Virus record (IMG/VR): IMGVR_UViG_3300018876_000008
Location: 105,338-169,337 of that record
Direction: 5' to 3' (one strand)
Origin: a virus
DNA: 64,000 nucleotides
Shown here: positions 6,853 to 53,149 of the stretch, in pieces
Numbering within the stretch: the first letter of the stretch is position 1
Layout: each line of letters opens with the position of its first letter
The notes under the pieces: generated by a model
What the model was told of the DNA's origin: nothing
Databases searched by the model: none
Seen by the model: the letters and a program-made list of their open reading frames with translations, nothing else
Program-made: the position numbers and the translations under genes

Positions 6853-7524
6853 TTACTTCTTACTACGAATCACCTCATCGATAATTCCATACTCTAAAGC
6901 CTCTTCCGATGATAACCACAAATCACGGGACGCATCCTGTTTTACTTTTTCGGGGTCTTTATCACAAAATTCACCAAGTAGGTTAAATAATGTGTCATTT
7001 AGTTTAGTCCATTCTTTCATTGTAATTTCAGCATCTTGAATGTTACCTACCGCACCTCCCGATGATTGATGTAACATTGTACGAGAAAATCTAAGTGATG
7101 AACGTTTACCTTTAGTTCCCGCTCCCAATAGAATTGAACCCATAGATGCCGCCATACCTGTATTTACTGTAACAATATCAGATTTAATGTAGTGCATAAC
7201 ATCGACCATTGAAAGTCCTGATTTAACCGAACCACCAGGTGAATCAATATGCATCGTTATATCCATATTATCGACAGAATCTAAATACATAAGTTGTGCT
7301 TGTACCACTGTTGACATTGCGTCATTAACAGGTCCTGCAACCCATAAAAGACGGTCTCTCATTAATCTTGAGAAGATATCTAATTGTACTGCCCTCATCT
7401 CTCTTTCTTCTAAAATGTAAGGGGTCATAGAACCCTCAAGTTCTTTTTTAATGTGATGCATTGTTAATGAAGATAAATTATGTTCACTCATTGCATACTT
7501 TTGAAAATCTTTTCCGTAATCCAT
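6853..7524 (-). CDS. clpP: ATP-dependent Clp protease proteolytic subunit
   Basis: Serine protease of the ClpP fold, full length at 223 aa. The catalytic triad is visible: Ser128 in GMAASMG, His152 in MLHQSSGG and Asp201 in ASRDLWLSS. The oxyanion-side SPGGS motif is at residues 95-99. A 30-residue N-terminal extension precedes the usual start of the fold. It should form a barrel fed by an AAA+ partner; the ClpC at 50230, with a VGF docking loop, is the obvious candidate. A TACCTTTG promoter lies 39 nt upstream and a terminator follows. Confidence 0.93.
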   Translation of the reverse strand: MDYGKDFQKYAMSEHNLSSLTMHHIKKELEGSMTPYILEEREMRAVQLDIFSRLMRDRLLWVAGPVNDAMSTVVQAQLMYLDSVDNMDITMHIDSPGGSVKSGLSMVDVMHYIKSDIVTVNTGMAASMGSILLGAGTKGKRSSLRFSRTMLHQSSGGAVGNIQDAEITMKEWTKLNDTLFNLLGEFCDKDPEKVKQDASRDLWLSSEEALEYGIIDEVIRSKK

Positions 7525-47165: not shown

Positions 47166-49070
47166 ATGAAATTTAGTACAATATTAAACGAAGGTAAAAA
47201 GGAAAATCTTATTTCTAAGTATGGTGATGAGCCAATATTCAAAGATAATGATTTTATTTCAACTATAGTTGATAGTGACCCATCTAGTACTAAGAAGTAT
47301 TCTGAATGGACCATTAAACAAGTAATTGATTTCATGAAAGTTAATGATGGGGCATCACTTCCAGATGTCGTTATCCAAATTACCGATTTAATTAAGAATT
47401 TTCACGACTTATCACTAACGATTACTGATGAGGATATTGATTTTGCCAAAAAATTACACTCAAGTATTAATGACACATATATAAAGGGAGCGCCTAAAGA
47501 TATACACAGATATAAATCATATTGGGAACTACAAACAGTCTTATCTGCACTTGAAAAAAAGAAAAAAGATAGAGAACAAGAAAAAGAAGCTTTAAAAGAT
47601 GTGGATAAACTTTATGAGGACAGTAGATTTTTAGTGGTGAGACCTTATAGTCATGATGCTTCGTGTTATTACGGTTCAAATACTAAATGGTGTACCGCAT
47701 CTAAAAATAATCGAGGATATTTTAATCGTTATGTAGATTCGGGAATATTAATTTATGTAATTGATAAAAAGTCCAATGATGAAACTTTAGGTAAAATGGC
47801 CATCAATATTAATGAAAATGGTAATATTTGGATTTACGACCAAAAAGATAATCAAAGGAGTGAAGACTTTTTACTTGATAGATTTGAACCTATTTCTGAG
47901 GTGATTAAAAAAATACTCAAAGGTGACACCGATTATGAGAAATTAATTAGAATAAAAGAAGGTAAAATAAGGGCTTCACAACAAAAACTTACTGCCCCGT
48001 ATTTTGAAGATATGAATGAAAATGATATTTTTTTACGTTTTGATGATGTGAGAGAATATCTTTCATTAATGAATGAGGCTTTAGAAGATTATGAAATAGA
48101 TGCTTATGCGAACGGTATTGAGTTACCTTATGGTATGGACAATTATTACTACGATTCATACAATTTTGATGAGGATTTGAAAGAAGGATACCCTCTTTAT
48201 AAATTAAATTCAGACCAGTTAAAAATTCTTAAAGATATATTAACTATTATTTCCCCTGACAAACTAAAAGGATTATTTAAAACTACCCCTAATGTATCTA
48301 GAGAGAAATTAAATAAATTTAAATCTATGGATAAGGGGTCACAAGATTATTTTGATTTATACAACTTATCAATTGTTGACAATAATAATTTACTCCCTGA
48401 TATTGGTAAGTTTTTATTAGGATTTGACGATAAATTTATAGAAGATTTTGGATATGCCTATGGGACTGCCGAAGATGAGTCAATGAAAAAAGGTGTTCAA
48501 GACGTATTAGAGGATGAATTGTGTAACTTCTATGAACCAATAGGGTTTGAATTAGTAGGTTCCGATTGTTTTTATAAGTATTCAGTATCAGTAGATAAGG
48601 TTATCAGTATGTATGAATCAAATATAGAATACTCAAAAAATTTATCTTTAAAAGAATTATTTGAATGGTTTGCCGAAGAAAACTTAGCATGGAGTCTTGA
48701 TGAACCTCATAATATGGCCTATGAGAATGCAGACGAAGAAACGTTTAATTACTATTTTAATTCAGATATGGAAAGTGCTTTGGAATCGTTACTTGAAAAA
48801 ATAGAAAGTGACGAAACATATGAAGATATTGAAGAATATAATAAAATAGTAAAATTAATTAGTAATAAGTACGGGTTTGATAAAAAAGTTGATATTCCAA
48901 CTACAGACGGTACTCAAATTACAATACAAAAAGTAAATCCACTAAATAATAAAGTTGAGTTTATGTTAAATAAAAAAGGTGATTGGAGAGGTAAAAAGGG
49001 TATAGCTAAACTATCCACAATCGAAAAAATGTTTACAAACTACCAACTATTTGACCCGTTCGAAGATTAA
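47166..49070 (+). CDS. Tagged large protein with TKWCTAS domain, 634 aa
   Basis: The N-terminal tag is short: MKFSTILNEGKK, predicted cleavage after E9. Residues ~155-235 form a compact domain with SCYYGSNTKWCTASKNN, FNRYVDSGILIYVID and GKMAININENGNIWIYD, a pattern I have seen in phage proteins of unknown function; Cys, Trp and Thr could be catalytic. The rest is acidic and helical. If packaged, it would be an effector delivered early (inference). Late-type motif upstream. Confidence 0.72.
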   Translation: MKFSTILNEGKKENLISKYGDEPIFKDNDFISTIVDSDPSSTKKYSEWTIKQVIDFMKVNDGASLPDVVIQITDLIKNFHDLSLTITDEDIDFAKKLHSSINDTYIKGAPKDIHRYKSYWELQTVLSALEKKKKDREQEKEALKDVDKLYEDSRFLVVRPYSHDASCYYGSNTKWCTASKNNRGYFNRYVDSGILIYVIDKKSNDETLGKMAININENGNIWIYDQKDNQRSEDFLLDRFEPISEVIKKILKGDTDYEKLIRIKEGKIRASQQKLTAPYFEDMNENDIFLRFDDVREYLSLMNEALEDYEIDAYANGIELPYGMDNYYYDSYNFDEDLKEGYPLYKLNSDQLKILKDILTIISPDKLKGLFKTTPNVSREKLNKFKSMDKGSQDYFDLYNLSIVDNNNLLPDIGKFLLGFDDKFIEDFGYAYGTAEDESMKKGVQDVLEDELCNFYEPIGFELVGSDCFYKYSVSVDKVISMYESNIEYSKNLSLKELFEWFAEENLAWSLDEPHNMAYENADEETFNYYFNSDMESALESLLEKIESDETYEDIEEYNKIVKLISNKYGFDKKVDIPTTDGTQITIQKVNPLNNKVEFMLNKKGDWRGKKGIAKLSTIEKMFTNYQLFDPFED

Positions 49071-50167
49071 TAAAAATAATCGTTTGATTCAGTCATACCT
49101 GAAAGTAATTTCTCTCTCAGTATTTCATACAACTCCCCAATCTCACTTTCATCCATGTAAACTACATCACCTGTAAATTTAGATTCAATGGAGATACCTT
49201 CTTTAGTATCAGTAACAATTACATTTTCCAATTCGTAACTTTCCTCATCGTAATCAATATCATCTACATCAGATTCCCAACCATCTAAAGTGTCATCAGT
49301 AACATCGAATAATGTACCATAATTGTTCCAATTAGGTTTTACATAATCATATACGTACTTTTGATTACCTAACTCATCTACCAATTTAATAGAAAACTCA
49401 ATAGCCTTAGATACGTCATCCACAACTACAAATTCATTAGCGGTATGCATGTTATAATATCCACATGAAAAATTAATACAACTAAAATCACCCTTACGTT
49501 TAATTTGAGAAACGTCAGTGTAAGGATGAGACTGAGGGTCGGCATTTACACCCATAATTTCATTAAATAGTGGAAGTGTTTTATTAATGAACTCACCACC
49601 TTTTTCATATAGTCTTGTCCCTGAACAAACTTCAGTAATTAAATTATTGCCAGGAGCATCGAATTGTACTGCATAACCCACATCGTTCAAGAAGTTGATG
49701 TCACATTTACTTGAACCATGACACCCTGTTTCTTCAGATACAAATAACCCTACTTTTACTTTAGAAAGGGTCCTGAGAAGTTCAAGTGCAATAAAGACAC
49801 CACACTTATCATCACCACCAATACCAGTTGGAATACCATCAGGTGTATAACCTTTAAGGGATAGAAATTCTTCATCTCCATAGGTATGACCAAAAGTATT
49901 TGGTTTAACAAGTGATTCTTCTTGAACGATTATTTTATCGACCAGTTGATGTACTGTGTCGGTATGGGCAATAAACATTGGATAATACTCTCCTTCGTCT
50001 AATGTACCTTTAGTGGCGTAAACATTATCCATTTCATCCGTATAATACTCAACATCGGGCATTGCCTCCAATACGTCGCGTAGGTATTGTACCATATTAT
50101 CTTCTTGATATGTTTTGGTTGGTACCGACAGTACTTCTTTTAGTCTATTGAGTTGTGTATTATCCAT
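49067..50167 (-). CDS. M20-family zinc peptidase-like protein, 366 aa
   Basis: Metal-binding blocks of the M20/peptidase T group: HTDTV (68-72), GGDDK (117-121), EETGCHGSS (145-153), DAPG and MHTANEFV. About residue 290 on, an acidic extension (DDTLDGWESDVDDIDYDEESYE) not usual in the family. Predicted cytosolic aminopeptidase or amide hydrolase. It shares a 4-nt convergent overlap with the 47166 gene. Host-type promoter 19 nt upstream; downstream of clpC but separately promoted. Confidence 0.85.
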   Translation of the reverse strand: MDNTQLNRLKEVLSVPTKTYQEDNMVQYLRDVLEAMPDVEYYTDEMDNVYATKGTLDEGEYYPMFIAHTDTVHQLVDKIIVQEESLVKPNTFGHTYGDEEFLSLKGYTPDGIPTGIGGDDKCGVFIALELLRTLSKVKVGLFVSEETGCHGSSKCDINFLNDVGYAVQFDAPGNNLITEVCSGTRLYEKGGEFINKTLPLFNEIMGVNADPQSHPYTDVSQIKRKGDFSCINFSCGYYNMHTANEFVVVDDVSKAIEFSIKLVDELGNQKYVYDYVKPNWNNYGTLFDVTDDTLDGWESDVDDIDYDEESYELENVIVTDTKEGISIESKFTGDVVYMDESEIGELYEILREKLLSGMTESNDYFY

Positions 50168-50215: not shown

Positions 50216-50243
50216 AAAAAAAGGGAAAATTAATTTCCCTTTT
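50216..50243 (-). terminator. Terminator of clpC
   Basis: AAAAAGGGAAA / TTTCCCTTTTT hairpin overlapping the clpC stop codon. Confidence 0.7.
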
Positions 50244-52251
50244 TAATGATTAATTCTTCATCGTTTTTCATTTCTACAGTAAAAGGTTTGTTTACTACAA
50301 TAGTACCTCTAAGAACTTCTTCAGAAATTAAATCTTCAATTTTTTCCTGTATTGCTCTTTTAATAGGTCTCGCCCCGTACTTTTCATCAAATCCAACTTT
50401 AGAAATAAATTCTTTAACTGAATCACTAAAATTAATATTATATTCCATTTCTTCTAAACGATTAGTTAATTTAAGTAATTCAATATCCACAATCTCAGAA
50501 ACTTCTTTTTCTTTTAGAGGGTTAAATACAACAACCTCATCTACACGATTTAAGAATTCAGGGGTAAAATGATTCTTTAATTCTTTTTGAAGTAACGCCT
50601 TTTTCATCTCTTCATTATTTGACATTCTATTAGAAGTCTCAAAACCAACACCTGTACCAAAATCTTGAAGTTTCTTAACCCCTAAATTAGATGTCATAAT
50701 AATCAAACAGTTCTTAAAATTAATTTTACGACCAAAACTATCGGTTAAGTGTCCATCATCCATCATTTGAAGTAATAATGAAAAAATATCTTTGTTAGCC
50801 TTCTCAATTTCATCGAACAAAACAACAGAATAAGGTTTGTTCTTAACCGCTTCAGTTAATTGACCTCCTTGGTCGTGACCAACATATCCTGGAGGAGAAC
50901 CAATTAATCTTGACATAGTGTACTTCTCTTGATATTCTGACATATCTACTCTAATTAAAGCGTCTTCAGCCCCAAATATCTCTTTTGCCAATTGTTTAGC
51001 TAAATGGGTTTTACCGATACCTGTAGAACCTAAGAATATAAAAGAACCGATAGGTCGATTAGGGTCTTTAATCCCAACTCTATTTCTACGAATAGCTTTA
51101 GAGATTTTTTCTACTGCAACTTTTTGACCGATTACAGAGCTATTAAGATTACCTTCTAAATTAAGTAGGGATTCTTTATCGTCAGAATTAAGTCTTGTAA
51201 CAGGTATTTTAGTCATAGTTGAAACAACCTCAAATACCATATCTTCAGTAATTGGTTTACGTTTTTGGTCTTTAGATAACTCAAACTTTTCTTTTTCATT
51301 ATCTAATTTTTTTAAGATTTTCTTCTCTTTATCACGTAATTCTGCTGCCTTTTCGTACTGCTGAGATTTTACTACTTCAATTTTTTCTTCTTTAATTTTA
51401 ACCGCATCTTCCTTTAACTTTTCAATTATTTCAGGAAGTTTGACGTTGATTTGAGCGCGGGCACCAACCTCATCCATAATATCGATAGCCTTATCAGGAA
51501 ATTCACGGTCAGTAATATATCTATCAGCAAGTGTTACACATGCTTTAAGTGAATTTTCACTATAAGTTACTTTATGATGTGATTCATAACGAGACTTTAA
51601 ATTTTCAAGAATGATTAAGGTTTCTGATGGAGTGGCACCATCAACAACAACTTTTTGGAACCTACGTTCAAGTGCACCATCTTTTTCTATGTTTTCACGG
51701 TATTCGTCAAGTGTTGTAGCTCCAATACATTGTAGTTCACCTCTTGCTAGTGCGGGTTTAAAAATATTAGAAGCGTCTAATGAACCTGAAGAATTACCTG
51801 CACCTATAATTGTGTGTATCTCATCAATAAAGACGATAATATCAGGATTCTCATAAAGTTCATCTAAAATAACTTTTAATCTTTCCTCAAATTGACCTCT
51901 ATATTTTGTACCTGCAACGATTGATGTCATATCCAAAGAGACGATACGTTTATCACATAAATTTTGGGGACAATCACCTTCGAAGATTTTCATTGCCAAT
52001 CCCTCTACAATTGCAGTTTTACCTGCACCTGGCTCACCTATAATAATTGGGTTATTCTTCTTTCTACGAGAAAGAATTTGAGCGATTCTATTAATTTCAT
52101 TTTCACGACCAACAACAGGGTCAAGTTTACCTTGTTCCGCATGTCTAATAAGGTCACGAGAAAAATTGTCTAAAACAGGTGTTTTAGAGTTACTCATTTC
52201 TTTAGGAGCTCTTCCTCCATCTTTTTCATTAGGGTCTAATGGTTCTATCAT
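50230..52251 (-). CDS. clpC: ClpC-type AAA+ unfoldase lacking the N-domain, 673 aa
   Basis: Two AAA+ modules: Walker A GEPGAGKT (72-79) and Walker B IIVFIDE (138-144); Walker A GSTGIGKT (408-415) and Walker B VVLFDE (476-481). Between them a ClpC-type middle domain with a UVR motif (QQYEKAAELRDKEKK, ~298-311). The VGF loop in FGTGVGFETS (~535-537) is the ClpC dock for ClpP, so it should feed the phage ClpP at 6853. The usual ~150-residue Clp N-domain is replaced by a ~25-residue acidic start. Two host-type promoters upstream. Confidence 0.93.
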   Translation of the reverse strand: MIEPLDPNEKDGGRAPKEMSNSKTPVLDNFSRDLIRHAEQGKLDPVVGRENEINRIAQILSRRKKNNPIIIGEPGAGKTAIVEGLAMKIFEGDCPQNLCDKRIVSLDMTSIVAGTKYRGQFEERLKVILDELYENPDIIVFIDEIHTIIGAGNSSGSLDASNIFKPALARGELQCIGATTLDEYRENIEKDGALERRFQKVVVDGATPSETLIILENLKSRYESHHKVTYSENSLKACVTLADRYITDREFPDKAIDIMDEVGARAQINVKLPEIIEKLKEDAVKIKEEKIEVVKSQQYEKAAELRDKEKKILKKLDNEKEKFELSKDQKRKPITEDMVFEVVSTMTKIPVTRLNSDDKESLLNLEGNLNSSVIGQKVAVEKISKAIRRNRVGIKDPNRPIGSFIFLGSTGIGKTHLAKQLAKEIFGAEDALIRVDMSEYQEKYTMSRLIGSPPGYVGHDQGGQLTEAVKNKPYSVVLFDEIEKANKDIFSLLLQMMDDGHLTDSFGRKINFKNCLIIMTSNLGVKKLQDFGTGVGFETSNRMSNNEEMKKALLQKELKNHFTPEFLNRVDEVVVFNPLKEKEVSEIVDIELLKLTNRLEEMEYNINFSDSVKEFISKVGFDEKYGARPIKRAIQEKIEDLISEEVLRGTIVVNKPFTVEMKNDEELIIKKGN

Positions 52252-52275
52252 ATTCTTTTAATTAATTTATAGTTA

Positions 52276-52283
52276 CAAAGATA
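52276..52283 (-). promoter_or_regulatory. Host-type -7 element TATCTTTG (clpC P1)
   Basis: 24 nt upstream of the clpC ATG. Confidence 0.6.
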
Positions 52284-52318
52284 ACAAAAATTATGTAGTT
52301 ATCAACTACTTGACATTT

Positions 52319-52359
52319 TGTCATACTAATTTTATTTTAAGTGTCATAATGTCATACTA
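52319..52359. repeat. TGTCATACTA direct repeats
   Basis: TGTCATACTA occurs at 52319-52328 and 52350-52359, with a further TGTCATAA at 52342. The 31-nt spacing is three helix turns. They lie between the two clpC promoters and could be an operator. Confidence 0.45.
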
Positions 52360-52425
52360 TAGGTTTTATAACCGTAATAAAGACAGTATTTAATTGATGG
52401 CACATTTTTCGTCAATGGTTAAGTA

Positions 52426-52433
52426 CAAAGATA
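52426..52433 (-). promoter_or_regulatory. Host-type -7 element TATCTTTG (clpC P2)
   Basis: Second candidate promoter, 174 nt upstream of the clpC ATG, beyond the TGTCATACTA repeats. Confidence 0.4.
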
Positions 52434-52460
52434 AACAATAAATTTTAAAAAAGTAATAAT

Positions 52461-52832
52461 ATGTTTGGAAAAAGAAAATTTAACAACTTGTTCGGTGAAT
52501 TTGATTCTATGTTTAATGAATTCGATTCTTTATTTAATAATATGAAACCAACCTATTATAGAGTAGGTCCTAATGGTTACGTTTTATATTATGGTTCTGA
52601 AACCGATAAAAATACCACTGATGAAATAACAACACTTAAAGATGAGTTAGAGATTTGTGTTGAAAATCAAGACTTTGAAAAAGCTGTTGAACTTAGGGAT
52701 AAAATTAAATCCTTAGAGGAGAACGGTGAAAAAATAAATAAACTTAGAAAGGATTTAAAAAAATCTATCGATGAACAGAATTTTGAAGAATCTATTAAAT
52801 TAAGAGATAAACTAAATAAGTTGACAAAGTAA
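52461..52832 (+). CDS. Double UVR-motif protein, probable ClpC adaptor, 123 aa
   Basis: Two UVR motifs: ENQDFEKAVELRDKIKSLEE (68-87) and DEQNFEESIKLRDKLNKL (104-121). UVR motifs occur in UvrB/UvrC, in the ClpC middle domain and in the ClpC activator McsA. The N-terminal 60 residues (FGEFDSMFNEFDSLFNN, then YRVGPNGYVLYYG) are not zinc fingers. Divergent neighbour of clpC, whose own UVR motif survives while its N-domain is gone, so an adaptor or regulator of ClpC is the best reading (inference). Confidence 0.75.
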   Translation: MFGKRKFNNLFGEFDSMFNEFDSLFNNMKPTYYRVGPNGYVLYYGSETDKNTTDEITTLKDELEICVENQDFEKAVELRDKIKSLEENGEKINKLRKDLKKSIDEQNFEESIKLRDKLNKLTK

Positions 52833-52836
52833 TTTT

Positions 52837-52863
52837 AAACCCTCCCATACGGAGGGTTTTTTA
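52837..52863 (+). terminator. Terminator
   Basis: AAACCCTCC-catac-GGAGGGTTTTTT after the UVR gene. Confidence 0.75.
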
Positions 52864-52900: not shown

Positions 52901-53149
52901 ATGGGAATTAAAAGTGAAAAAATAAAAGGTAAACTCATTATAAATGAGATTGAGTCATCTAACTTAAAAAAGACAGTATATGATACTGGTAATGAAAAGT
53001 TAGTAGTAACATTTAACAACGGTATGGAGTATGAATATGAAAAAGTTCCACACTCAATGTACACTAAATTTAGAATGGCGGAATCGCAAGGTAGTTTCTT
53101 TAATAAAGAGATAGGGAGGAAATACAAATACAAAAAAATCACAAAGTAA
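52901..53149 (+). CDS. KTSC-domain protein, 82 aa
   Basis: Residues ~14-78 match the KTSC pattern: IESSNLKKTVYDTGNEKL, VTFNNGMEYEYEKVP, FRMAESQGSFFNKEI. KTSC domains are small, frequent in phages and beside RNA-related enzymes; function unsettled. Complete as a stand-alone domain. Next gene starts 23 nt later. Confidence 0.85.
   Translation: MGIKSEKIKGKLIINEIESSNLKKTVYDTGNEKLVVTFNNGMEYEYEKVPHSMYTKFRMAESQGSFFNKEIGRKYKYKKITK

Follow-up and report, generated by a model that had tools for sequence, protein, structure and literature searches.

A ClpC-like ATPase without N-terminal domain and its candidate double-UVR cofactor in large T4-like phages

Background

The N-terminal domain (NTD) of ClpC is the docking site for MecA, McsA/B, MdfA, and phosphoarginine substrates. 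M-domain contacts of S. aureus ClpC are made by the residues F436, R443, and D444, the first of which MecA also requires (PMC5699869). In the silent state these tip residues join two spirals head to head, and it is by covering the tip that MecA switches ClpC on (PMC5699869, PMC12583610). McsA/B acts through the NTD (PMC12583610). An artificial S. aureus ClpC without NTD (dN-ClpC) binds ClpP and is held by its M-domain contacts (PMC12583610, PMC5699869); it is proteolytically inactive until these are broken and forms ClpP-linked rods via head-to-head contacts of the M-domains (PMC12583610). McsA, an activator of protein-arginine kinase, is small and has a UVR hairpin; its gene, in the ctsR-mcsA-mcsB-clpC operon, lies near clpC and is a stress gene under operator control. 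In plastids, UVR proteins are trapped by CLPC1 (PMC8889267). ClpF, which is a Clp adaptor, EXE1/EXE2, and UVR2-4 were recovered with CLPC1, which retains its NTD; their partner domains are YccV and DUF151.

Links to phages are also known. SPO1 Gp53 is an adaptor-like protein that modulates ClpCP of B. subtilis (PMC6873191); it acts on the ClpC of the host, and SPO1 brings no ClpC of its own. In Moraphage and bS21-phage, which are large Bacteroidota phages, a ClpA-like ATPase and a peptidase belong to the core genes, HSP20, DnaK, and DnaJ have been noted, and ClpC-like ATPases, ClpP, HSP20, and DnaK have already been listed for such phages (PMC12619734, PMC9723584). The available portions of these accounts mention neither a missing NTD nor a UVR partner, a shared operator, or a mutual replacement of genes (PMC12619734, PMC9723584). 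Likewise, we did not find the missing NTD, a double-UVR partner, or an operator uniting UVR, HSP20, and DnaK genes described in the available portions of the literature searched.

Here, we analyse a stretch of 64,000 nucleotides (the window), which comprises bases 105338-169337 of a 169-kb IMG/VR virus record; genes for terminase and portal are found at 58-62 kb. That the host belongs to the Bacteroidota is inferred from the family match of ClpP, the type of promoter, and the published relatives. A single scan of genomes for a host-side UVR counterpart gave UVR relatives in Clostridia and other phyla and, by title, no Bacteroidota among the matches listed.

Results and discussion

The phage ClpC and the missing N-terminal domain

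The clpC gene (50230-52251, minus strand) encodes 673 residues in the order AAA1, M-domain with UVR, and AAA2. The Pfam families found in the product are AAA, AAA_lid_9, UVR (residues 285-313), AAA_2, and ClpB_D2-small; Clp_N is absent among the 25 Pfam families listed. A direct search for Clp_N in the whole 169-kb record came back empty, while nine of 14 control genomes score. Residue 17 of the phage protein is aligned to residue 154 of S. aureus ClpC, and therefore the NTD of about 150 residues is absent. These three lines of evidence agree with the preliminary description, which had reported a ClpC without Clp_N. A free-standing Clp_N protein that would restore the docking platform was also considered and rejected, none scoring over the cut-off in 11 records. 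Both AAA+ modules have their Walker A and B motifs and both pore loops, and the VGF motif of the putative ClpP-docking loop is found at residues 535-537 (50641-50649, minus strand), so that the two modules, the UVR-bearing M-domain, and the VGF loop of the earlier account are all confirmed by Pfam and alignment. The M-domain hairpin (51265-51432, minus strand; helices 274-295 and 299-329) was placed with an AF2 model of modest confidence (pLDDT 66.4) and the alignment to S. aureus ClpC, in which Y299, R306, and D307 are the equivalents of the tip residues F436, R443, and D444.

These features are shared by the relatives. All 60 distinct phage ClpC sequences compared are without room for an NTD, their tip triad is invariant or nearly so, and their P-loop motif for ClpP (VGF/IGF/IGL type) reads VGF or IGF throughout the alignment. 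Full-length open frames span 659-689 residues in the 26 large ClpP-bearing phage records, and the N-less ClpCs of the huge phages LR745206 and LR756502 have 701 and 707 residues, respectively. To judge from these comparisons, the loss of the NTD is a family trait rather than a truncation. Because Clp_N is missing and the other hallmarks of ClpC are present, the protein is by its domain content ClpC-like and N-less, not a full ClpC (Hsp100 class I). It has the same domain content as dN-ClpC, which is, however, a laboratory construct, whereas the phage protein lacks the NTD by nature and has a candidate mimic of the M-domain encoded beside it. In another genome (G042:C1:63264-66876) clpC consists of two open pieces separated by about 1.6 kb, with the break between AAA1/M-domain and AAA2, for which an insertion element or an intron is possible.

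ClpP and the adjacent peptidase

The clpP gene noted before at 6853 extends to 7524 on the minus strand and encodes 223 residues with an intact catalytic triad (Ser127, His152, and Asp197), which is conserved in 57 of 57 phage ClpPs. ClpC is present in 22 of the 26 large ClpP-bearing phage records, being split in two in one record. All 57 phage ClpPs have a histidine (His92) in the strand lining the docking pocket for the ATPase, at a position that is tyrosine in the bacterial homologues shown. Because of this replacement docking of the phage ClpC to ClpP is called plausible here; the same histidine might reserve the phage ClpP for the phage ClpC.

Directly downstream of clpC lies a peptidase gene (49067-50167, minus strand) of phrog_4191 with weak M42/PepT similarity. 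In almost every relative it directly adjoins clpC at the 3' end: among the 71 loci with enough sequence the two genes are on the same strand in 50, and in 19 the peptidase gene is convergent and within about 45 nt. Perhaps this peptidase trims the ClpCP peptides to amino acids.

The double-UVR protein

Divergent to clpC, a gene at 52461-52832 (plus strand) encodes a protein of 123 residues with a Phe-rich N-terminal helix, a β-hairpin, and two UVR hairpins. The two UVR motifs (Pfam, E = 1.2e-17) are located at 52620-52721 with F72, R79, and D80, and at 52728-52829 with F108, R115, and D116, both on the plus strand, which bears out the two motifs already described for this neighbour. UVR hairpins and ClpC M-domain share the tip motif aromatic-x6-Arg-Asp. 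Among 63 rows the aromatic residue of motif 1 is Phe in 52 and Tyr in 10, and the Arg and the Asp are each found in 62; the conservation of motif 2 is nearly equal. The best profile match is McsA, followed by the M-domain of S. aureus ClpC, both above UvrB. The fold search gave the same order (McsA 8wtb/8wtc, then the S. aureus M-domain), all Foldseek E-values being above 0.3. In the AF2 model, which is of modest confidence (pLDDT 69.8, pTM 0.37), the predicted UVR hairpins superpose on the S. aureus M-domain 9qcl_B with 1.0 Å over 42 columns (probability 0.90, E 1.8).

The likeness to McsA had been taken further than the data allow. A C-terminal UVR motif is found in both proteins, but the solved McsA structure has a single matching UVR stretch (residues 142-176), and therefore the comparison of the two motifs with "McsA-type regulators" is not exact. 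In addition, the phage protein has another N-terminal part without the zinc-binding CxxC motifs of McsA, containing one Cys in its 123 residues, and reaches 41.9 bits with NCBIfam NF053706 against a cut-off of 210, so that an identification as McsA was rejected. Also in contrast to McsA, its gene is divergent to clpC, and the NTD through which McsA/B works is absent in the phage (PMC12583610). The proposed role resembles that of MecA, which covers the M-domain tip (F436) and thereby activates ClpC, but MecA has an unrelated fold and needs the NTD as well. A derivation of the N-terminal part from HSP20 was dismissed because the profile comparison gave no homology (hhalign probability 1%). A partner in DNA repair within the phage was also dismissed: UVR matched no frame of UvrB/UvrC length in the records tested, in which it occurs in ClpC and in small proteins.

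A slot shared with HSP20 and DnaK

Dozens of other phage contigs show the same arrangement of clpC with a divergent UVR gene, which is therefore more than chance. When the loci that include a clpC frame were clustered at 95% ClpC identity, 29 clusters resulted, of which 23 have a UVR gene nearby, four an HSP20 gene, and two neither. In loci that have it, the UVR gene almost always adjoins clpC in divergent orientation; at one locus (L041) two genes are inserted between them. An HSP20 gene occupies the slot of the UVR gene in L048, L063-L066, and L084, and a DnaK gene in L275. The 26 large records contain the double-UVR protein in 11 cases, HSP20 in six, and both in none, although this mutual exclusion does not represent independent events because the records are related. 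Together, the comparisons support the UVR protein as the genomic partner of the N-less ClpC, and the ClpC/UVR system is by sequence conserved among large T4-like phages. The suggestion that ClpC is controlled through UVR contacts only is too strong: the slot is held by HSP20 or DnaK in relatives, and one clade has neither UVR nor HSP20 there and the same M-domain tip. The tip being equally conserved in the clade without a UVR gene, it does not co-vary with the presence of the UVR gene and is invariant in both groups.

Other types of UVR proteins are found in huge phages. LR745206 and LR756502 encode BFN/DUF151-UVR proteins (L195:1961-2569 and L196:2517-3107) besides the N-less ClpC; UVR proteins of this type were also recovered with plastid CLPC1. 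Small single-UVR proteins are encoded in ClpP-bearing huge phages (L192:2360-2749, L194:2395-2856, L193:2286-2585, and L425:1052-1588); among the huge phages with single-UVR proteins, LR745206 and LR756502 also have the N-less ClpC.

A mobile operator and promoter element

The intergenic regions between clpC and the UVR gene are 60-215 nt long and contain two TGWCA-N3-TGWCA operators and a TTGGYAY box (TTGGCAC). In the window, the motif matches are TGACATTTTGTCA (52311-52323) and, 31 bp from it, TGTCATAATGTCA (52342-52354), neither with an assigned strand; these are the only two sites in the 64 kb, where 0.31 are expected by chance. Operator 1 lies directly upstream of a promoter motif towards clpC, TTG-N19-TATCTTTG (52276-52305, minus strand), which we take to be of the Bacteroidetes housekeeping type. 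Towards the UVR gene, the box TGGCACATTTTTC (52398-52410, plus strand) resembles the -24 element of sigma54 promoters and is conserved in 37 aligned upstream segments. Its GG is present in 37 of 37 segments, which had been selected by it, and the -12 GC is not conserved in them. Therefore, a canonical sigma54 promoter was discarded and the box is only called sigma54-like. Because a family search for sigma54 activators in eight phage records matched only ClpC itself, a phage-encoded activator was dropped, and the regulator of the element, if the box is of the sigma54 type, is probably not phage-encoded. The spacing of the operators is 31 bp in 26 of the 35 distinct upstream regions with two matches and 21 bp in three, and the distances to the box peak at 24, 35-36, and 55-57 bp. 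By these distances, the operators are helically phased to the box, in steps of about one turn and on one helix face. A terminator-like hairpin with T-run (52839-52862, plus strand) follows directly after the UVR gene, which is thus probably monocistronic.

Similar operators, mostly with the box, are present at the HSP20 loci; the freshwater clade with neither UVR nor HSP20 has neither operator nor box. A blind scan of 2.9 million IMG/VR contigs with the operator pair alone retrieved 118 loci; the neighbouring gene encodes a UVR protein at 64 of them, HSP20 at 20, and DnaK at three. Of the remaining 31, many belong to unrelated contigs, which are often GC-rich, or are truncated by the end of a contig. 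In one phage (G032: L419, L426) a UVR gene about 50 kb away from clpC retains operator and box, and clpC there has neither, which assigns the element to the cofactor gene and not to clpC. At four loci (L206, L256, L269, and L310), apparently outside the Clp phages, the operator pair stands in front of a small, unrelated phage gene (MRNAPLNYVNLPQQNKRG...). In L202, L242, and L303 it directly precedes a gene for 81 residues, whose homologue in the window (52901-53149) comes after the UVR gene; this is perhaps a remnant of a loss of the UVR gene. A close relative (L026:7303-7770) has kept the operators, has an unrelated gene for 155 residues in the slot, and lacks the TTGGCAC box.

Proposed mechanism and alternatives

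With the NTD absent, the M-domain tip is the remaining known control point of the phage ClpC. We lean towards the view that the UVR protein is a tailor-made activator and loader, a stress-type cofactor that would cap this tip. The phage would assemble its own ClpC-ClpP protease, and the UVR hairpins would pair with the M-domain tip of ClpC in place of another M-domain and so release the repressed assembly. The Phe-rich helix and the β-hairpin may bring misfolded or aggregating protein, and the UVR gene would be switched on from the operator/box unit that drives HSP20 or DnaK in related phages. That UVR protein and ClpC touch each other, that the effect is activation rather than inhibition, that the N-terminal part binds substrate, and that stress induces the gene is what we infer from the features above.

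An inhibitor or storage factor would fit the same data. It could be that the UVR protein bridges the M-domains of two hexamers and keeps ClpC as a silent store, which is released when the UVR protein is degraded or titrated by substrate; the conservation of the aromatic/Arg/Asp triad applies equally here, and two tandem UVR motifs suit bridging. However, the slot is otherwise held by HSP20 or DnaK, and these work with Hsp100s by presenting substrate, not by inhibiting them. The replacements thus favour loading and activation, and we regard storage as unlikely, even though dN-ClpC/ClpP forms rods via head-to-head M-domain contacts (PMC12583610) and active ClpC is toxic (PMC5699869).

The chaperones in the slot also bear on the two other explanations. 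If UVR protein, HSP20, and DnaK were just stress chaperones in a common regulatory cassette, the UVR gene would be located beside clpC without any contact of the products. This would agree with the operator unit moving with the chaperone-type gene and not with clpC, as in G032, and with HSP20 and DnaK not being mimics of the M-domain. We give it very little credence: the UVR protein, a non-chaperone alternative, has two copies of the very motif by which M-domains of ClpC make contact, and LR745206 and LR756502, in which the N-less ClpC is elsewhere in the genome, also have separate UVR proteins. UVR motifs of UvrB and UvrC pair with each other, and a host target of the phage protein is therefore possible. 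In that case it would be an anti-host factor acting on the M-domain of the host ClpC or on host UvrB/UvrC, in the manner in which SPO1 Gp53 serves as a phage adaptor-like modulator of ClpCP (PMC6873191), and the adjacency to clpC would be incidental. This seems quite improbable, given that in most lineages the UVR gene has stayed linked to the ClpC of the phage itself, that chaperones replace the UVR gene under the same operator type, and that the profile scores favour McsA and ClpC over UvrB. The capping of the M-domain tip by a dedicated activator is thus the explanation that we prefer.

Conclusions

It is conceivable, and we propose it tentatively, that these phages have a stand-alone proteolysis without the adaptor-docking NTD, combined with an interchangeable module (UVR, HSP20, or DnaK) that a single mobile operator of the stress type governs, and controlled by a dedicated mimic of the M-domain. 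The analysis uncovers a phage proteostasis regulon, since among 2.9 million contigs the DNA element alone is sufficient to find genes for HSP20, DnaK, and UVR proteins. The phage ClpC is a natural counterpart of the dN-ClpC construct for dissecting the repression of ClpC. Because the candidate activator bears only the contact surface of the M-domain, it can be tested whether M-domain contacts alone control an Hsp100 protease. It is also testable whether UVR hairpins are a general tag for docking to ClpC, in McsA as well as in the plastid and phage UVR proteins. If the proposal of a stand-alone system holds, Hsp100 proteins would be controlled in a novel way, being activated purely by an exchange of the partners of the M-domain.
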